A DNA stretch of 64,000 nucleotides from Geothrix paludis. Lineage in GTDB: Bacteria > Acidobacteriota > Holophagae > Holophagales > Holophagaceae. The translations under genes were made by a program, and so were the position numbers. Positions 6,167 to 13,439 of this stretch are shown here, one piece after another. The notes below the pieces were generated by a model that was not told where the DNA came from, searched no databases, and was given only the letters and a program-made list of their open reading frames with translations. Location of the stretch: assembly GCF_022808815.1 (NCBI RefSeq), contig NZ_JAKZLC010000005.1, positions 186,001 to 250,000 of the forward strand, read 5' to 3'. Numbering within the stretch: position 1 is the first letter of the stretch; every line of letters begins with the position of its first letter.

Positions 6167-7486
6167 TCACTTCGCGGCCGCGGCGGCGGCGTCAGGGCCC
6201 TTGCGGGCGAACGTGAACAGCAGGTAGATGTCCACGGCGCCCAGCAGCGCGTAGACGAGGAAGAAGGCCGCGAGCGAGGTGCCCACCTGCGAGGTGGCCA
6301 GGGGCGAGACGGCGTCGGAGGTCTTCATCAGGCCGTAGACGATCCACGGCTGGCGGCCCAGCTCCGCGAGGGTCCAGCCCAGCTCGTTGGCCAGGTAGGG
6401 CAGCGGGATGAGCCAGGGCAGCACCTTCAGGAACCGCGACTGCTCCTCGATGCGATCGCGCTTGAGCCAGGCCCAGAGGCCCAGCGCCAGGAAGAGCATG
6501 CCCAGGCCCACCATGGCGCGGAAGCTCAGGAACACGGGCAGCACGGGCGGCCGCTGGTCGGCGGGGTAGTCCTTCAGGCCCTTCACCTCGCCGCCGGTGG
6601 AGTAGGTGGCCAGCAGGCTGAGGCCGCTGGGCACGGAGAGCGACTGCACGGCGTTGCGCTCGTTCGCGGCGTCGGGCCAGGCCAGCAGGTGCATGGGCAC
6701 GTTGCGGCCGGTCTCCCAGTGGGCCTCCATGGCCGCCAGCTTGGTGGGCTGGGCGGTGCTGAGGATCTCGGCATTCATGTGGCCCTGGGCGATCTCGAAC
6801 AGCGCGAAGATCAGCGTCCAGGCCGCCGCCAGGCGGAAGGACTTCTTGAAGAAGGCCGTCTCGTGCTTGCGGATCAGGTGCCAGGCCGAGATGCCCAGCA
6901 CGAAGAAGCCCGCGGTGATGTAGGCGCCGCCCAGGGTGTGGATGAACTCCAGGATGGCGAAGCGCTGGGTGATGACGGCGAAGAAGTCCGCCAGCTCGGC
7001 GCGACCGTTCCGCAGCACGAAGCCCGTGGGGTGCTGCATCCAGGCGTTGGCCACGAGGATCCAGAAGGCCGAGAGGTTCGAGGCGATGGCCACCAGCCAG
7101 ATGGTCACCGCGTGGGCCTTCTTCGACAGCTTGTTCCACCCGAAGTGCCACACGGCGATGAAGGTGGACTCCAGGAAGAAGGCCGCCGTGGCCTCGATGG
7201 CCAGCAGCGAACCGAAGATGTCGCCCACGTAGGCCGAGTAGCGGGACCAGTTCGTGCCGAACTGGAACTCCAGCGTCAGGCCCGTCACCACGCCGATGGC
7301 GAAGTTGATGAGGAAGAGCTTCCCCCAGAACTTGGCCATGCGCTTGTAGTCCTCGTCCCCGCTGCGCACGTACTGCGTCTCCATGAGAGCGACGAGCATC
7401 GAGAGGCCCAGCGTCAGGGGCACGAACAGGAAGTGGAAGTAGGTGGCGACCGCGAATTGCAGGCGCGACAGGGCTAGGACATCCAA
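6167..7486 (-). CDS. cydA: cytochrome bd ubiquinol oxidase subunit I
   Basis: This 439-residue, multi-helix protein starts MDVLALSRLQFAVATYFHFL, with the expected heme-ligand histidine at residue 18. It carries GRQPWIVYG in the conserved quinol-site/heme region. At 439 residues it is clearly shorter than the enterobacterial form of about 520, which points to a short Q-loop (inference). AAAGGAGG lies 9 bases before the ATG. The gene sits between an Rrf2 regulator (36 bp upstream) and cydB, so the three probably form one transcript. Some short-loop oxidases are cyanide-insensitive; that property cannot be read from the sequence. Confidence 0.96.
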   Translation of the reverse strand: MDVLALSRLQFAVATYFHFLFVPLTLGLSMLVALMETQYVRSGDEDYKRMAKFWGKLFLINFAIGVVTGLTLEFQFGTNWSRYSAYVGDIFGSLLAIEATAAFFLESTFIAVWHFGWNKLSKKAHAVTIWLVAIASNLSAFWILVANAWMQHPTGFVLRNGRAELADFFAVITQRFAILEFIHTLGGAYITAGFFVLGISAWHLIRKHETAFFKKSFRLAAAWTLIFALFEIAQGHMNAEILSTAQPTKLAAMEAHWETGRNVPMHLLAWPDAANERNAVQSLSVPSGLSLLATYSTGGEVKGLKDYPADQRPPVLPVFLSFRAMVGLGMLFLALGLWAWLKRDRIEEQSRFLKVLPWLIPLPYLANELGWTLAELGRQPWIVYGLMKTSDAVSPLATSQVGTSLAAFFLVYALLGAVDIYLLFTFARKGPDAAAAAAK

Positions 7487-7521
7487 GGTGTCCTCCTTTC
7501 AGGGGGGGTTGGGTGGGAGCG

Positions 7522-8001
7522 CTAGGAGACGTTACAGGCCGACGCCGCCGTCCGGACGGCGGCGTGGCGGGAGAGGTGGGCGCTGAGGTGCGCCTCGGAA
7601 TCGTGGGCCAGGGCGTCGAAGCGCACGCCCGCCAGGTGATCGCGCAGGGCCTGCGTGGCGGCGGCCCAGGCGCCCTGCACGGGGCAGCCCTTCGACAGGG
7701 GGCAGATGTGCTTGCCGTCGAGGCACTGGTTGAGGACGATGCCGCCCTCCACCGCCTCGATGATGTCGAGCAGCGAGATCTCCGCGGCGGGCCGCGCCAG
7801 GCTGATGCCGCCCCCCGTGCCCCGGGCCGTGCGGAGGATGCCCGCCTTCACGAGGCTGGCGGACAGGCGGCGCACGAAGGCCTCCGGCAGGAGGCGGAGC
7901 TGGGCGATCTCGCCGATGGAGACGCGCGTGCCGGGCTCGAGCGTGGCCAGGTGAAGCACCAGCCGCGCCGCGTAGTCCGTCTGTCTGGAGATGCCGATCA
8001 T
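7522..8001 (-). CDS. Rrf2-family iron-sulfur regulator upstream of cydAB
   Basis: This 159-residue protein begins MIGISRQTDYAARLVLHLA, the Rrf2 winged-helix start, with a recognition region QLRLLPEAFVRRLSASLVKAG and GGGISLARP wing. Three cysteines in CLDGKHICPLSKGC are placed like those that bind an iron-sulfur cluster in IscR/NsrR relatives. The ATG at 8001 is chosen because it aligns with the family start; a longer reading to 8064 would run through the operator. It is the first gene of the transcript that continues into cydA and cydB. Control of the oxidase in response to oxygen or nitric oxide, with self-regulation, is inferred. Confidence 0.88.
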   Translation of the reverse strand: MIGISRQTDYAARLVLHLATLEPGTRVSIGEIAQLRLLPEAFVRRLSASLVKAGILRTARGTGGGISLARPAAEISLLDIIEAVEGGIVLNQCLDGKHICPLSKGCPVQGAWAAATQALRDHLAGVRFDALAHDSEAHLSAHLSRHAAVRTAASACNVS

Positions 8002-8011
8002 GGGGCCCCGG

Positions 8012-8068
8012 AATGTGACTGTTTCACTAACATTACCCAACCAGTCACATTGGTCAATACCCATGGGT
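8012..8068 (-). promoter_or_regulatory. candidate promoter and Rrf2 operator for rrf2-cydA-cydB
   Basis: Upstream of the Rrf2 start there is a perfect 9-base inverted repeat, AATGTGACT (8012-8020) and AGTCACATT (8043-8051), separated by 22 bases. On the minus strand a TTGACC hexamer (8052-8057) adjoins the outer arm and could be the -35 box, with a weak -10 (TAATGT) between the arms. A second perfect palindrome, ACCCATGGGT, lies at 8059-8068. The dyad would overlap the promoter, as expected for an autoregulated repressor. Promoter boxes are weak matches and unproven. Confidence 0.55.
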
Positions 8069-8132
8069 CAACAATTTTGAGGATGATTGAGTCCCCTTCT
8101 CAATGCCTTCGGCGCGTGGGCTTCGCGCCCCC

Positions 8133-10427
8133 CTACAGCTTCACCGACCGCAGCCGTAGCGCGTTCCCAATAACCGACACCGAGGACAGGCTCATGGCGG
8201 CGCTGGCGATCATGGGGCTCAGCAGCAGCCCGAAGACCGGGTACAGCACGCCCGCGGCCAGGGGGATCCCGATCACGTTGTAGATGAAGGCGAGGAACAG
8301 GTTCTGCCGGATGTTGCCCAGGGTGGCGCGGCTCAGCCGGATCGCCCGCAGGATGCCGCGCAGGTCGCCCTTCACCAGGGTGATGCCGGAGCTCTGCATG
8401 GCGGTGTCCGTGCCCGTGCCCATGGCGATGCCCACCTGGGCCAGCGCCAGCGCCGGGGCGTCGTTCACCCCGTCGCCCGCCATGGCGACGACGCGGCCCT
8501 CGGCCTGGAGCCGCTTCACCACGTCCCCCTTGCCCTGAGGGAGGATCTCCGCCTCGAAGGCCTCGATCCCCAGCCGCGCCGCCACGGCCGCCGCCGTGGC
8601 CTGGCTGTCGCCCGTCAGCATGACGATGCGGAGGCCCTCCTTCCGCAGCAGGGCGAGGGCCTCGGGCGTGCTCGGCTTGATGGGGTCCGCCACGCCGATG
8701 AGGCCCGCCGGGCGGCCGTCCAGGGCCACGAGCATCACGGTCTGGCCCTCGCGGCGGAGCGCCTCGGCCTTGGCCTCCAGGGCTTCAGGGTCGACCCCTC
8801 GGTCGCGGAGCAGGCCGGCGTTGCCGAGGAGCACCGCATGGCCCTCGACGGTCCCCGTCACCCCCAGGCCCGTGACGGACTGGAAGCCTTCCGCCGACGG
8901 CAGGACCAGCCTCCGGGCCTCGGCCCCCTCGACGATGGCGGCGGCGAGCGGGTGCTCGCTCCCCCGTTCCAGGGCCGCGGCCAGTCGCAGCAGCGCGGCG
9001 TCGTCCTGGCCTTCGAGAGGCGTCACCGATGCCAGCCGGGGCTTGCCTTCGGTGAGCGTGCCGGTCTTGTCCACCAGGAGGGTGTCCACCTTCTCCATGG
9101 CCTCCAGGGCCTCGGCGTCGCGGATCAGCACCCCCGCACGGGCCCCGGCCCCGGCCCCCACCATGATGGACATGGGCGTGGCGAGGCCCAGGGCGCAGGG
9201 GCAGGCGATGATGAGCACCGCCACGGCGTTGAGCAGCGCGTAGGCCAGGCGGGGCTCGGGCCCCCGGAGAGCCCAGACCAGGGCCGTCGCCGCGGCGGCG
9301 ACCACCACGGCAGGGACGAACCAGGCGGCCACCTGGTCCGCCAGCCGCTGGATGGGCGCGCGGCTGCGCTGGGCCTCGCTCACCTGCTGCACGATCTGGG
9401 CGAGCAGCGTGTCGCGGCCCACGCGCTCGGCGCGGATCAACAGCCCGCCGGTCCCGTTGAGGGTCCCCCCGATCACCTTCGAGGCGGGGGCCTTCTCGGT
9501 GGGGATGGATTCGCCAGTGACCATGGATTCGTCCACGGCGCTCGCGCCCTCCAGCACCACGCCGTCCGCGGGGACCTTCTCGCCGGGGCGCACCCGCAGG
9601 CGGTCCCCCACCTGGACCTCCGCCAGGAGCACGTCATGCTCGGCGCCATCGGCCTCCACCCGCCGGGCGGTCCGGGGGGCGAGCCCCAGCAGCGCCTTGA
9701 TGGCGCTCGACGTGGCGCTGCGGGCCTTCAGCTCCAGCACCTGCCCCAGCAGTACCAGGGTGACGATGACGGCGGCGGCTTCGAAGTACACGGGGACCAT
9801 GCCGCCGTGCCCCCGGAAGCTGTGGGGCAGCGCCTCCGGGAACAGGGCCGCGAACAGGCTGTACACGTAGGCCACGCCCGTGCCCAGGGCGATGAGGGTG
9901 AACATGTTCAGGGAGCGGTTCCGGATGGAGGCCCAGCCGCGCTCGAAGAAGGGCCACCCCGCCCAGAGCACCACGGGCGTCGCCAGCGCCAGCTGGATCC
10001 AGGTGAAGACAGCCGCCCCGAGGCGGGCGCGCACGGGGTCGCCCGGGATCAGCTCGGACATGGCCATGAGGAACACGGGAAGCGTCAGGGCCGCGCCGAT
10101 CCAGAAGCGGCGGGTCATGTCGGCCAGCTCGGGATTCGGCCCCTCCTCCAGGGCCGCGGCGCGGGGCTCCAGCGCCATCCCGCAGATAGGGCAGGTGCCC
10201 GGCCGGTCCCGCACCACCTCCGGGTGCATGGGGCAGACGTACTCCGTCGCGGCTTGCGTCGGGACTTCGGGCTCCAGAGCCATGCCGCACTTGGGGCAGG
10301 TGCCGGGCCGATCCCGGCGGATGTCGGGATGCATGGGGCAGACGTACCAAGACGCGGAGGGCCCCGCCGGGGCAGCCGGGGTGGCGTCAAGCGGAGCCGG
10401 ATGAGGGTGCCCGTGTTCGTGAGCCAT
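8133..10427 (-). CDS. copA: copper-translocating P1B-type ATPase
   Basis: This 764-residue pump has two N-terminal heavy-metal-binding zinc-ribbon-like repeats of the type YVCPMHPD...[10 protein letters not shown] (about residues 27-55 and 62-90), preceded by a His-rich start (AHEHGHPHP). The core shows TGES, the membrane CPC motif ([10 protein letters not shown]), the phosphorylation site [10 protein letters not shown], and [12 protein letters not shown] in helix 7 and MSLSS in helix 8 are the Cu(I)/Ag(I) signatures. It exports cytosolic copper or silver. The ATG at 10427 is used because GGGAGA lies upstream; a TTG six codons earlier is less likely. It follows the sigma/anti-sigma pair at 92 bp, which suggests metal-responsive control. 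Confidence 0.92.
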
Positions 10428-10473
10428 GGAAGTCTCCCGCGGCAAGCGATCCAGGGCACTCTATCCCGTTTCA

Positions 10474-10505
10474 GGGCTTCCGGCCGCCGCCGGTTCCGGA
10501 AGCCC
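10474..10505 (-). terminator. stem-loop between anti-sigma gene and copA
   Basis: A perfect 10-base inverted repeat, GGGCTTCCGG (10474-10483) and CCGGAAGCCC (10496-10505), lies in the 92-bp gap upstream of copA. No T-run follows on the minus strand, so it may be a partial terminator, an attenuator or an RNA-stability element that sets copA expression apart from the upstream genes. Confidence 0.45.
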
Positions 10506-10519
10506 CTCGCGCGGCCTGC

Positions 10520-11128
10520 TCAGCCCTGCCCGCCCCATCCCGGCGGTTCGACGAGGACATAGGCCCGGCCGTTCTCGTTCCAGGCCTGGGCCCGGTGTCC
10601 CTCGGCGGCGATCCGGCGAGGCTGATCCGAATCAAAGGGCAGGCCCCGGAGGGTGCGGTCGAAGACGTAGATGGCGCGGCCATCCTGGAGGTAGTAACAG
10701 ACGGCGCGGCAGGCCTCCATGTCGCACACGCAGCCCCCCTTCATGGCCTGCCCGGCCAGGCACTTCGGCAGCGCGGCGGAGAATCCGGCGGCCTGCGCGG
10801 ACCATCGCCGGCCCTGCTCCCCGGAATCTGGACCGGAGGCCTCCGCGGTGAACGCCATGCGCGGGGCCTCCCTGAACATCTGGATCGCGGCCCGGCCGAG
10901 CCGCGGGCCTTCCTGGCCGCGCCCATGGACCATCCACCCCCAGGTCCCCCCGCCCAGGAGGACCATCAGCAGGGCGGCAATCCCCAGGGCCGGCCATGTC
11001 CAGCGCGAACGCCGCTTCCCGGCCGCGCGCAGCAGGCTGCGCCGCAGGTCGTCGGGGGCGGCGCCGGGGCGCAGGGCGTCCCTGAGTTGCTGGTCGAACC
11101 CAGGGGTGGGGGCCGTGTTTCGGGTCAT
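10520..11128 (-). CDS. anti-sigma-like single-pass membrane protein with Cys-rich outer domain
   Basis: This 202-residue protein has a cytoplasmic N-terminus of about 42 residues (DQQLRDALRPGAAPDDLRRSLLRAAGKRR), one membrane helix (about 44-66, WPALGIAALLMVLLGGGTWGW), and an outer domain with five closely spaced cysteines (CLAGQAMKGGCVCDMEAC then RAVC) ahead of YYLQDGRAIYVFDR. The start overlaps the upstream sigma-factor stop by ATGA, the usual arrangement for a sigma and its anti-sigma. No classical zinc-binding anti-sigma motif is present at the N-terminus, so the anti-sigma role is an inference from topology and position. The Cys cluster could bind metal or respond to redox. Confidence 0.6.
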   Translation of the reverse strand: MTRNTAPTPGFDQQLRDALRPGAAPDDLRRSLLRAAGKRRSRWTWPALGIAALLMVLLGGGTWGWMVHGRGQEGPRLGRAAIQMFREAPRMAFTAEASGPDSGEQGRRWSAQAAGFSAALPKCLAGQAMKGGCVCDMEACRAVCYYLQDGRAIYVFDRTLRGLPFDSDQPRRIAAEGHRAQAWNENGRAYVLVEPPGWGGQG

Positions 11129-11637
11129 ACCACACCTCCCTTCACGGAGATCCCTTCTTCCGCCATGGCTGCCTTCAAGGCCGCCTTGGCCCGGTGGATC
11201 CGGCTCTGGACGGTGCCCAGGGGAAGGTCCAGGAGGCTGCCGATCTGGTCGTAGGGAAGCTCCTGCTGGTATCGCAGGAGCAGGATGGACCGTGCCGCCT
11301 CGGGAAGCCGGTCGAGGGCGGCGGGCAGCGCCGCGAGCAGCGAAGGGTCCACGGTTTCGTCGACCTCGGGGCCCGGAAGGTTCTCGAAGGCCTCGTCGTC
11401 CCAGACCTCGAACCGGGCGCTGGCCCGGAACTCCATGGCGATCTCGTGGCGGAGGATGGACAGCAGCCAGCCGCGGGCCGCCAGGGCGTCCCGAAGCTGG
11501 CTGAGCTTCTCGAAGGCCTTGAGGAAGGTCCGCTGCACGAGCTCCCGGGCGAGATCCTCCTGGCGGAGCTTCGCCCGGGCATAGGCGTACACCGCGTCAA
11601 GATGCGCCTCCACCAGGGATTCCGATGTCAGGTCCAA
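11125..11637 (-). CDS. ECF-type RNA polymerase sigma factor
   Basis: This 170-residue protein contains a region 2 segment (AHLDAVYAYARAKLRQEDLARELVQ, then RTFLKAF and GWLLSILRHE) and a region 4 helix-turn-helix (LPEAARSILLLRYQQEL, PYDQIGSLLDLPLGTVQSRI). Both are typical of extracytoplasmic-function sigma factors. The frame opens with a TTG at 11637; no in-frame ATG is available, and the Shine-Dalgarno match is weak, so the exact start is uncertain. It sits between the WYLP-repeat protein gene upstream and the anti-sigma-like gene downstream (ATGA overlap). Copper or envelope-stress control is inferred from copA downstream. Confidence 0.88.
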   Translation of the reverse strand: MDLTSESLVEAHLDAVYAYARAKLRQEDLARELVQRTFLKAFEKLSQLRDALAARGWLLSILRHEIAMEFRASARFEVWDDEAFENLPGPEVDETVDPSLLAALPAALDRLPEAARSILLLRYQQELPYDQIGSLLDLPLGTVQSRIHRAKAALKAAMAEEGISVKGGVV

Positions 11638-11756
11638 GGGATGTCCTGCATGCCGTCCTCGACGCGCCTGCCCTGGGCATCAACCCCGCGCGGCGCCCCC
11701 GCAAGGGCGACCGGAACGGTGGCGGAGCGGGCCATTCCACCAAAGCACGGGACGGA

Positions 11757-12215
11757 TCAGGACGGCAAGTACCAGGCGTCGACGGGATTTTCGGCAGGGG
11801 CGGACTTGGCGTGGCTGGACTGCTCCCCGGCCTGCTCCCCGGCCTGTTCCATGGTGCACGGCGTCTCGCAGCAGGCCATGGTTGCCACCGCCGCGCTGGC
11901 GCCTTCCTCCGCAGTCGGCAGGTACCAGGAGGCGGCTGCGCCGTCCTGCTTCGCCGGGGCCGCGGTGCTTTGCGTCTCATCGCAGGCCATGGTGCCGTTC
12001 GACGCGGCGTTCGCCTCCTCCCAGGTCGGCAGGTACCAGGATCCGGTCGCCTCCGGAGCGGGCGCGTCGTGGACGGCTTTCGCCATGTCCATGGTGCACT
12101 GGGATGCCTGGCAGGCCGTGGCCTGATGGGCGGGCAGCGTTCCGGCATCTCCGGCGAAGGCGGTGGTGAATGCGGCAAGCGCCAGCATGGCAAGCGGGGT
12201 TCGAGTGATCGTCAT
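11757..12215 (-). CDS. secreted Cys/Met-rich protein with three WYLP repeats, function unknown
   Basis: This 152-residue protein has a signal peptide (MTITRTPLAMLALAAFTTAFA) and is not a family I recognise. Three copies of a short motif occur: SWYLPTWEEANAA (near residue 59), SWYLPTAEEGASA (near 96) and AWYLPS as the last residues. Each of the first two is followed or preceded by cysteine/methionine clusters: ACQASQCTMDM, TMACDE and TMACCETPCTMEQ. GGAG lies a few bases before the ATG. It is the first gene of a same-strand run leading to the sigma factor, its partner and copA. Periplasmic copper binding or sensing is a reasonable inference, not shown. Confidence 0.7.
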   Translation of the reverse strand: MTITRTPLAMLALAAFTTAFAGDAGTLPAHQATACQASQCTMDMAKAVHDAPAPEATGSWYLPTWEEANAASNGTMACDETQSTAAPAKQDGAAASWYLPTAEEGASAAVATMACCETPCTMEQAGEQAGEQSSHAKSAPAENPVDAWYLPS

Positions 12216-12261
12216 GGCATCTCCAGTGAGACCGGCCGATTCAGCGGCTCACAGGAAGGGA

Positions 12262-12286
12262 TGCACGAAGGGACGCTTTGTTCCCT
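12262..12286 (-). promoter_or_regulatory. possible ECF-type promoter element upstream of the WYLP gene
   Basis: On the minus strand the sequence GGGAAC (plus-strand GTTCCC at 12280-12285) resembles the GGAAC -35 box of many ECF promoters. It lies about 65 bp upstream of the WYLP gene and is followed by a CGTG within about 12-16 bases. The spacing is not ideal, so this is tentative. Confidence 0.25.
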
Positions 12287-12321
12287 CCCATTTTGCCGGC
12301 CTGCGGTCCCGGCGGCCCGGT

Positions 12322-12744
12322 TCAGCCCAGGCGCTGGTACAGCAGCGCGTCCTCGCCGTCGGCGTAGTAGCGGGGGCGCCGGCCGCAGGGCGACCAGCCG
12401 CAGGCCTCGTAGAGCCGCACGGCGGCCTCGTTCGAGGGGCGCACCTCCAGGTACAGGCAGTCCATCCCGTCCGCCGCCAGCTCCCGCTGGCTGGTCATCA
12501 GCAGGGCCCGGCCCAGGCCGCGGCCCCGGGCCGCCGGGGCCACGACGATCCGCACCAGCTCGGCCTCCCCCGCCCGGGGCGCCCGCGACCACAGGGCGAA
12601 GCCCACCTCCGGCACCATCCACAGGGCCTCGTGGCCAGCCAGGTCGCCCCAGGGCTCCCCGAAGGCCTGGCGGTCCAGGGCCACCACCCAGGGCGGCAGC
12701 GGGGCCCCCTCCAGGAGCCGGTGGACCGCGTGGGGCCGGGTCAT
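12322..12744 (-). CDS. rimI: GNAT N-acetyltransferase, RimI-like
   Basis: This 140-residue GNAT protein has the acetyl-CoA pyrophosphate-binding motif RGRGLGRALL (about 73-82) and the downstream LEVRPSNEAAVRLYEACGW, the ribosomal-protein-alanine acetyltransferase pattern. The ATG at 12744 overlaps the tsaB stop (ATGA). Pairing with tsaB is the usual context of RimI-type enzymes, which acetylate ribosomal protein S18 in Escherichia coli. Substrate identity is inferred from family and neighbour. Longer upstream readings of the frame lie inside tsaB and are rejected. Confidence 0.83.
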   Translation of the reverse strand: MTRPHAVHRLLEGAPLPPWVVALDRQAFGEPWGDLAGHEALWMVPEVGFALWSRAPRAGEAELVRIVVAPAARGRGLGRALLMTSQRELAADGMDCLYLEVRPSNEAAVRLYEACGWSPCGRRPRYYADGEDALLYQRLG

Positions 12745-13439
12745 CGCGCCACGCCCCTCCGCAGGGCTTCCGGCAGGTGGGCGGCGGCGTGGGGAAAGTT
12801 CACCTCGGCGTCGGTCTCCCGCAGGTAGAAGGGCTTGAGGGGCGCTTCCGGCGCGCCCTGGGACACCCGCCGGGCCAGCGCCACCAGGCCCGCCAGGGTG
12901 GCCGCGCCCTCGTCGGCCAGCGCGATGCGGTGGTCCGGCAGCACGGCCGCCACCTTCGGCGCGAAGGCCTCCGGCGCCCACCAGGCCTCATCGCCCACGC
13001 GCCCGGGCAGGTCCGCCAGGGGATGCTTGGCGGCGGGCTCCGTGGGGCCGTCCGCCCCCCAGCGCTGGTGGAAGGCTTCGCCTCGCTGGCCGTCCAGGAG
13101 GATCCACAGGGGCCCGGTCACGCTGGCTTGACGCAGCGCCTCGGCCCGCAGCGCGAAGGCGGAGAAGCCCCAGGTGGGCAGGCCCGTGAGGCCGAAGCCC
13201 TCGGCCGTGGCCACGCCGATGCGCAGGCTCGTGAAGCCCCCAGGGCCCAGGCAGGCGGCCACGCCGGCGAGGTCGCCCGGGGCGGCGCCGGCCTCGGCCA
13301 TGAGCTCGTCCAGCGTGGGGATCAGGCGCTCGCTGTGCCCCCGTCCCACGCCCGAGACCACCCGTCGCGTCCACGCGTGGTCCCCCCGGATCAGCGCCAG
13401 GTGCAGGATTTCCGTGGTGGTGTCGAGGGCGAGCAGCAT
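12741..13439 (-). CDS. tsaB: tRNA threonylcarbamoyladenosine biosynthesis protein TsaB
   Basis: The 232-residue protein starts MLLALDTTTEILHLALI and carries GRGHSERLIPTLDELM and CLGPGGFTSLRIGVATAEG, the landmarks of the TsaB/YeaZ ASKHA fold. TsaB works with TsaD and TsaE to place the t6A modification at position 37 of ANN-decoding tRNAs in the cytoplasm. The start at 13439 matches the family N-terminus; longer readings would run into the rpmB terminator region. The stop overlaps the start of the rimI-like gene. Confidence 0.93.
   Translation of the reverse strand: MLLALDTTTEILHLALIRGDHAWTRRVVSGVGRGHSERLIPTLDELMAEAGAAPGDLAGVAACLGPGGFTSLRIGVATAEGFGLTGLPTWGFSAFALRAEALRQASVTGPLWILLDGQRGEAFHQRWGADGPTEPAAKHPLADLPGRVGDEAWWAPEAFAPKVAAVLPDHRIALADEGAATLAGLVALARRVSQGAPEAPLKPFYLRETDAEVNFPHAAAHLPEALRRGVAR

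Follow-up and report, generated by a model that had tools for sequence, protein, structure and literature searches.

A conserved ECF sigma/anti-sigma operon with a secreted cysteine-rich first product in Geothrix and other Holophagaceae, a candidate switch for periplasmic metal or thiol stress

To which signal might a sigma factor answer when its gene is placed between those of a secreted, cysteine-rich protein and a membrane protein with cysteines on its outer side? Geothrix is a metal reducer, and the question is raised by a locus in a 64,000-nucleotide stretch of DNA (the window; bases 186001-250000 of contig 5 in the 3.4 Mb genome of a Geothrix of the family Holophagaceae, labelled G000), whose closest named relatives in the genome collection are Geothrix sp. 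SG200 and Geothrix fermentans. The original prediction for this DNA had described, on one strand, genes for a secreted Cys/Met-rich protein, an extracytoplasmic function (ECF) sigma factor, a single-pass membrane protein and a copper-type ATPase, and had taken them for a possible copper-sensing regulatory unit. The open reading frame (ORF) list, the translations and the domain scans place all four genes on the minus strand in the order claimed. Our analysis supports the view that the first three of them (the triad) form a real, autoregulated sigma/anti-sigma operon, and we lean, with slightly more belief than doubt, towards reading this operon (12215-10520) as an ECF sigma/membrane anti-sigma switch for periplasmic thiophilic-metal stress. 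If this is correct, Geothrix and its relatives would possess a compact means of sensing metal or thiol stress in the periplasm, a promoter that singles out its operon within the whole genome, and a set of secreted proteins rich in cysteine, of which the three members scanned belong to no family.

A probable sigma/anti-sigma pair conserved in Holophagaceae

The sigma factor scores above the cut-offs of both PF04542 (40.2 bits) and PF08281 (58.8 bits) and matches TIGR02937, with regions 2 and 4 only; its translation contains no cysteine. The ATG of the following gene overlaps the sigma stop codon by ATGA, an overlap that is conserved, and the protein it encodes has a single hydrophobic stretch (by eye, about residues 48-66) and, after it, the cysteines C123, C133, C135, C140 and C144. 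Residues 6-96 of the window protein match the anti-sigma model NF052375 of NCBI with an E value of 1.6e-4 and 21.7 bits against a cut-off of 100; the N-termini of all eight members scanned match the same model (best E 1.1e-4), all of them far below the cut-off. The overlap and these matches agree with the sigma/anti-sigma pairing that had been proposed and suggest an anti-sigma activity for the membrane protein.

The distribution of the pair was traced with three anti-sigma profiles. A four-row profile (cut-off 1e-8) matched 8 of the 396 phylum genomes, an eight-row profile (1e-6) 12 of the 77 family genomes, one of them (G012) by fragments only, and an 11-row profile (1e-4) 21 of the 396 phylum genomes, including 13 outside the family. 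Full-length relatives are encoded in 11 of the 77 Holophagaceae genomes, namely Geothrix G000, G006, G008 (G. fermentans) and G002, and G379, G372, G199, G160, G429, G430 and G431 of other genera. We read the surroundings of these 11 loci as far as the contigs reach, those of G429 and G431 being short. An ECF sigma gene precedes the anti-sigma gene in every one of them, the sigma gene of G372 being cut by the contig end. Because the triad is kept in three other Geothrix genomes, with 51-90% identity to the window anti-sigma factor and 93, 90 and 71% to the sigma factor, its association is more than chance. A sigma profile searched against 37 genomes reached E values of 1e-103 or better only in the four Geothrix that bear the anti-sigma factor, with a weaker match (3e-21) in G016. 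In a search of genome contigs, the four-row profile had no matches other than those in Geothrix sp. SG200 and G. fermentans DSM 14018; plasmid records searched for the anti-sigma factor gave no match.

About 20 other Geothrix genomes gave weak matches to the anti-sigma factor (E 5e-6 to 9e-4), which were set aside: none of the four loci examined (L014, L034-L036) has a sigma gene alongside, and the matches in L014 and L034 fall in a different membrane protein. The G012 fragments (L048:6697-7000, plus strand) are an outer-domain remnant in two frames, near a contig end and beside a transporter gene, and represent either a decayed copy or an assembly error. The 7.2-kb contig carries no sigma gene, and G012 is counted among the 12 family matches and excluded from the 11 full-length loci.

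A promoter that singles out the operon

Alignment of the regions upstream of the first genes in the four Geothrix genomes revealed two blocks 11 bases apart, which define the promoter as GGAACAAA-N11-TGCATCCCTT (GGAAC-N16-CATCC). The layout GGAAC-N16-CATC is typical of ECF promoters. The operon starts with GGAACAAA-N12-GCATCC in 7 of 10 testable loci, G372 lying outside the promoter and first-gene counts because its contig begins inside the sigma gene. The site was also located by script, at 0-3 mismatches, in each of L089, L090 and L091, just 5' of a short gene with a signal-like start. Across eight sites from seven genomes and four genera, 15 of 29 columns are invariant, and the spacer between the blocks is variable. 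The first genes of G429, G430 and G431 are preceded instead by a conserved GGAATAAAA...CGTCTACT.

Perfect copies of GGAACAAA-N12-GCATCC would be expected about 0.008 times per genome if bases were independent. Whole-genome scans of the 11 genomes found one in each of G000, G006, G008, G002, G199 and G160 and two in G379, every one at or beside the operon (the second G379 copy lies nearby), and none in G372, G429, G430 or G431. With one mismatch allowed, the same 11 genomes contain 6 further sites, and a control with the reversed pattern and up to one mismatch gave 3 matches. The conserved promoter supports the earlier claim that the genes form a shared regulatory unit, and it suggests that the sigma factor itself recognises this site. 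We are highly confident that the locus encodes a true sigma/anti-sigma pair with an autoregulatory promoter.

The six one-mismatch sites (L115, L117-L119, L121 and L122) were read individually, and five of them lack a convincing target. The sixth, GGAATAAAATTAGGACTGGCGCATCC, lies on another contig of G372 (L115, reverse strand, from about base 1485) and is followed by genes for a 143-residue, secreted-looking protein with six cysteines and a TolC-like protein (by eye), a possible second target. A scan of four genomes with three mismatches found one further site in each; the site common to G000 and G006, which lies where a malate-synthase-like gene begins on the opposite strand, was rejected.

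A variable, secreted, cysteine-rich first product

The first protein of the window operon (152 residues) contains 6 cysteines and 7 methionines, carries the motif WYLP at residues 60, 97 and 148, and matches nothing in Pfam and nothing significantly in NCBIfam or the PDB (best PDB E 0.33). It has orthologues in G006 and G008 and a diverged one in G002; the motif reads WYLP in G000, G006 and G008 and WYLQ in G002, and each of the four proteins has 6 cysteines. The WYLP repeat had been put forward as the defining feature of the locus, which does not extend to the other genera, where a different short Cys-rich secreted protein occupies the first position. That of G379, G199 and G160 has 57-81 residues, a signal-like start and 3-4 cysteines, in arrangements such as CEQCKSC, CTPSGCC and CKEKECCKDKAAC; that of G429, G430 and G431 has 68-71 residues and 8 cysteines in the metallothionein-like pattern CCK...CDKCKD..CK...CK. 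A short protein with a signal peptide (judged by eye throughout) and 3-8 cysteines thus precedes the sigma gene in 10 of 10 testable loci. The constant feature, to judge from the translations, is a short secreted Cys-rich protein, of which the WYLP repeat is a local form. The first product may bind metal.

A predicted RseB-like outer domain

The four Geothrix anti-sigma proteins have all five outer cysteines in common. Only C135 is invariant in the 11 sequences, and the proposal that the five form a conserved sensor is not supported by this comparison; the total number of outer cysteines is nonetheless 5 in eight and 4 in three of the 11 proteins, though most positions shift.

The AlphaFold model of the whole protein is poor (pLDDT 58, with most of the N-terminal half below 50), and the outer domain modelled alone (residues 88-202) reached a pLDDT of 85.2 and a pTM of 0.81. 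A Foldseek search of this outer-domain model against the PDB gave RseB/MucB as the best match (E 0.029, Foldseek probability 1.00). In the VIA comparison, RseB/MucB structures occupy the first six rows (Z 6.5-5.4, rmsd 3.5-4.7 over 78-88 residues), the next row having a Z of 4.6; the top row has a Z of 6.5 and an rmsd of 3.6 over 80 residues, and Z values below 8 may reflect merely a common arrangement. The whole-protein model returned the same top structural matches. At the level of sequence, hhalign detected no relation to E. coli RseB, and the anti-sigma sequence found no relative among solved structures (best E 0.35). The models point to, and do not prove, a fold like that of the RseB C-terminal domain.

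The copper ATPase and the nature of the signal

The fourth gene of the window encodes an ATPase that exceeds the cut-off of the Cu-type model TIGR01511 (594.6 bits against 397), has two N-terminal PF19335 (HMBD) domains and contains CPC in its translation; the ORF list starts it with TTG at 10445, and the ATG at 10427 is the likelier start. It lies on the same strand as the triad, 92 nt from the anti-sigma gene, and no terminator-like site with a T run was found in 7400-12800. The ATPase adjoins the triad in two of the 11 loci (G000 and G006, the two ATPases being 93% identical), and in these two species it may be cotranscribed with the triad. It had been described as an integral member of the system; it stands apart from the triad in G. 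fermentans, where an Rrf2 gene directly follows the triad with no ATPase between, in G002 and in all seven loci outside Geothrix.

The G002 triad has a different location, about 5.6 kb away from a P1B ATPase gene, in a region that also encodes a MerR regulator, a MerT/P-like protein, a CopZ-type Fe-S chaperone, TRASH and FtrD-like proteins, an RND pump and a CusB-like HMBD protein. On the other side, genes for a resolvase, MobC/NikA and an integrase lie within about 17 kb (L047, L075), which suggests that the G002 triad is able to travel with metal islands. G379 has FtsX/ABC and two-component genes in common with the G002 region and, in addition, ResB; the 18 kb read there showed no P1B ATPase. 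Genes for a Cation_efflux protein and a CusB/HlyD-type protein lie, respectively, about 2 kb from the G372 operon and about 1.2 kb from the G430 first gene; proteins of both kinds also serve other purposes. Homologues of the triad do therefore occur near metal genes, with a Cu-type pump adjoining two of the 11 loci and one more locus in a metal-resistance island. These contexts are consistent with metal as the signal, as the original prediction held, and we consider the sensing of soft metals fairly probable. The Cys-rich first products and the cysteines of the outer domain speak for metal as well, as do the precedent of the metal-responsive SigF-NrsF system of Caulobacter and the result of a search for CsoR, which was found in G008 alone among 37 genomes, and so neither in G000 nor in 35 of the 36 relatives searched with it. 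Its further claim, that the signal is copper, is not sustained as it was stated: copper is one candidate among others, and we place its being the natural signal somewhat short of an even chance.

Several findings weigh against a metal switch. The ATPase is present without the triad in G019 (80%) and G017 (68%), and the gap between the anti-sigma and ATPase genes holds a hairpin, found in G000 and kept in G006, where one pair has changed in a compensatory way and two pairs are G-T (by eye). Around the operon, the stretches read in G008, G199 and G160 showed no recognisable metal gene, and neither did the short contigs of G429 and G431. At least two more P1B ATPases are encoded in G000, the first next to a MerR-type regulator (L079) and the second next to CopZ and a Cys-tailed ECF factor (L080); with such candidate metal regulators adjoining its other pumps, copper sensing in G000 is not short of a regulator. 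The product of the second G379 gene with the same perfect promoter (L089:12044-12283, minus strand) is a small, cysteine-free secreted protein in which SRWFAGKYRPA occurs twice, and which the metal reading leaves unexplained. Lastly, among the six best of the 13 anti-sigma matches outside the family, whose loci were read, four (L134, L136, L137 and L139) adjoin a gene for a thioredoxin-fold protein (thioredoxin, DUF255/DsbH twice and AhpC-TSA), and none adjoins a recognised copper gene.

The findings on the pump would be accommodated if the copper ATPase, driven from a promoter of its own, were a mere neighbour of the triad, and the triad had nothing to do with copper. Nine of the 11 loci lack an adjoining ATPase, G019 and G017 have the ATPase without the triad, the gap before the ATPase gene holds a hairpin, and no close match to the sigma site precedes that gene. 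The hairpin itself is a possible attenuator or processing site; a terminator between the two genes was considered and rejected, the hairpin having no T run and its region a folding energy that is unexceptional (z -0.87). Against such independence stand the common strand, the short gap, the absence of a T-run terminator over 7400-12800, the adjacency kept in two species and the metal region around the G002 triad, and we judge it rather unlikely that the pump is unrelated and the triad has no link to copper.

Alternatively, the switch might sense periplasmic thiol oxidation or disulfide stress, with C135 and its neighbours forming or breaking disulfides, the secreted protein acting as a thiol buffer or redox target, and the copper pump being a later, local addition. 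The five Holophagaceae loci with no recognised metal gene in the stretch read would fit this proposal, as would the four distant loci beside thioredoxin-fold genes. All six distant membrane proteins have a G-x-x-x-C stretch, mostly GG-x-x-C, at the place of C135 (by eye); the remaining two loci lie beside an RND-like pump and a small secreted protein, respectively (by eye). Because distant relatives of the anti-sigma factor adjoin thioredoxin-fold genes, thiol state rather than metal may be the older signal, and the distant Acidobacteriota anti-sigma factors, whose outer domains are of a similar kind, possibly represent a wider thiol-sensing ECF group. These relatives differ, however, in their first genes and partly in their N-termini (zf-HC2 in one), and therefore their signal need not be the same. 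The Holophagaceae first products, most of all those with 8 Cys (CCK..CDKC..CK), resemble metal binders and not redox enzymes, and P1B pumps lie close by in two separate contexts (G000/G006 and G002). On balance, we regard a thiol switch as a serious rival explanation of the Holophagaceae operon, though as less likely than the metal reading. A general envelope-stress switch, in which the RseB-like domain would respond to misfolded components of the envelope in the way RseB serves E. coli sigma E, with the cysteines forming structural disulfides, could draw on RseB and MucB as the nearest solved folds of both models, but is very unlikely given Z values below 8, no hhalign relation to E. coli RseB, odd Cys numbers and shifting positions that ill suit conserved structural disulfides, and no protease or chaperone gene recognised in the operon.

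A proposed mechanism for metal sensing

The metal-stress switch that we favour starts from features that can be read in the DNA, namely the operon order, the gene overlap, the conserved promoter, the Cys-rich, signal-like first product and the cysteines of the outer domain, and adds metal as the presumed signal. At rest, the cytoplasmic N-terminus of the anti-sigma factor would tether the sigma factor to the membrane. When soft metal ions (Cu(I) and perhaps also Ag(I) or Hg(II)) engage the cysteines of the RseB-like outer domain, the sigma factor would be freed by a change of shape or by proteolysis. Once freed, it would transcribe from GGAACAAA-N12-GCATCC, and the output of the operon would be a secreted Cys-rich protein that soaks up metal outside the cytoplasm, together with more sigma and anti-sigma factor. 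In G000 and one relative, a Cu(I)-exporting ATPase would perhaps form part of the same output. We tentatively extend this model to a Holophagaceae sensor class, possible rather than probable, in which a fused RseB-like Cys domain would bind Cu(I)-like ions directly and drive, from a private promoter, fast-evolving and unmodified secreted chelators of the metallothionein kind, the WYLP proteins among them.

Relation to known sigma factor systems

The logic of the operon recalls the Caulobacter SigF-NrsF system, which is described as metal-responsive, two cysteines (probably periplasmic) of its six-segment anti-sigma factor mattering for the response (PMC3511200). Genes for the sigma factor and NrsF also occur in clusters with bufferins (DUF2282), which are secreted copper binders (PMC12452194). 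Both systems combine an ECF sigma factor, a membrane anti-sigma factor with periplasmic cysteines, a dedicated promoter class and small secreted Cys proteins, which sequester copper in the related clusters. They differ in that NrsF, as described there, has six membrane segments and two conserved cysteines, whereas the protein here has one segment (by eye) and an RseB-like domain; no NrsF-type family appears among the Pfam or NCBIfam matches of the anti-sigma proteins scanned. The Caulobacter promoter given in the same sources, GTAACC-N16-CGAA, differs from the one found here, and SigF is reported in them as not strongly autoregulated, whereas here a conserved promoter heads the sigma operon (PMC3511200, PMC12452194).

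The first products described here match no DUF2282 model. Bufferin-type modification by an MNIO enzyme was considered for them, and no MNIO gene lies at the operon; PF05114 occurs elsewhere in 8 of the 11 genomes and was not found in G429, G430 and G431, whose genomes are 76-93% complete. One MNIO gene of G000 (contig 6 near base 157000) is preceded by a gene for a secreted DGSCGKGSCG-repeat protein (L108, just 5' of 1501, plus strand) that resembles a Buf_EGKCG/oxazolin copper-binding RiPP precursor.

Copper- or metal-dependent ECF factors are also represented by CorE and CorE2 of Myxococcus; CorE-type factors sense copper in the sigma factor itself (PMC8999054, PMC10141476). The likeness lies in an ECF sigma factor linked to copper ATPases. 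CorE (ECF238, formerly ECF44) is described as having its own Cys-rich C-terminal domain and a CxC linker and no anti-sigma factor, and this mode does not fit here because the sigma factor has no cysteine. A CorE-like logic is seen elsewhere in G000, on contig 2 near base 383000, where a 192-residue ECF factor with the Cys-rich tail CRTCAAHGCLDCRC (L080:11805-12383, minus strand; best NCBIfam match SigZ, below the cut-off) is directly followed by genes for a CopZ-like protein and a P1B ATPase.

RpoE-RseA-RseB and AlgU-MucA-MucB are envelope-stress systems, each with an ECF factor and a single-pass anti-sigma factor, and RseB and MucB are periplasmic regulators of sigma E. The operon described here shares with them an ECF factor coupled to a probable single-pass anti-sigma factor and, in the predicted models, a resemblance of its outer domain to the C-terminal domain of RseB/MucB. 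It is unlike them in that this domain is fused to the anti-sigma factor, bears cysteines and showed no sequence relation to E. coli RseB by hhalign, and the operon contains no recognisable RseB gene of its own. The CnrYXH system of Cupriavidus senses nickel and cobalt through an ECF system with a separate periplasmic sensor, CnrX; the operon here, likewise a candidate metal-sensing ECF system, is without a third regulatory gene such as CnrX.

By these comparisons, the best reading of the operon is a thiophilic-metal or thiol stress switch that would follow the logic of SigF-NrsF-bufferin with an unrelated, RseB-like sensor. If so, this would suggest that the pairing of an ECF switch with a secreted metal buffer arose more than once; the Holophagaceae sensor class proposed above would be a separate origin of that logic. 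A literature search, with most subscription journals outside its coverage, found no description of this operon.

Features and surroundings of the locus

The features of the locus are collected in Table 1. The ATPase is listed there as a facultative fourth gene.

Table 1. Annotated features of the locus in window coordinates
Feature	Position	Strand	Basis and remarks
Promoter	12256..12284	-	ECF-type, operon start
Secreted Cys/Met-rich protein	11757..12215	-	152 aa ORF; signal peptide by eye
WYLP motif 1	12027..12038	-	Residues 60-63, translation
WYLP motif 2	11916..11927	-	Residues 97-100, translation
WYLP motif 3	11763..11774	-	Residues 148-151, translation
ECF sigma factor	11125..11637	-	170 aa, TTG start; Pfam over cut-off
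Single-pass membrane anti-sigma factor (predicted)	10520..11128	-	202 aa ORF; ATGA overlap with sigma stop
Outer (periplasmic) domain of anti-sigma factor	10544..10867	-	Residues 88-195; AlphaFold model, RseB-like
Intergenic hairpin GGGCTTCCGG/CCGGAAGCCC	10474..10505	-	Between anti-sigma and ATPase genes
P1B copper-type ATPase	8133..10427	-	TIGR01511 over cut-off, PF19335 x2; facultative fourth gene

The interval flagged in the original prediction runs from the stop of the ATPase gene (8133) to 12285, which practically coincides with the start of the promoter at 12284. Beyond the ATPase on the 3' side lie an Rrf2 regulator gene and then cydAB-like genes, and the 5' neighbours of the locus resemble rimI, tsaB, rpmB, dprA and topA (by eye).

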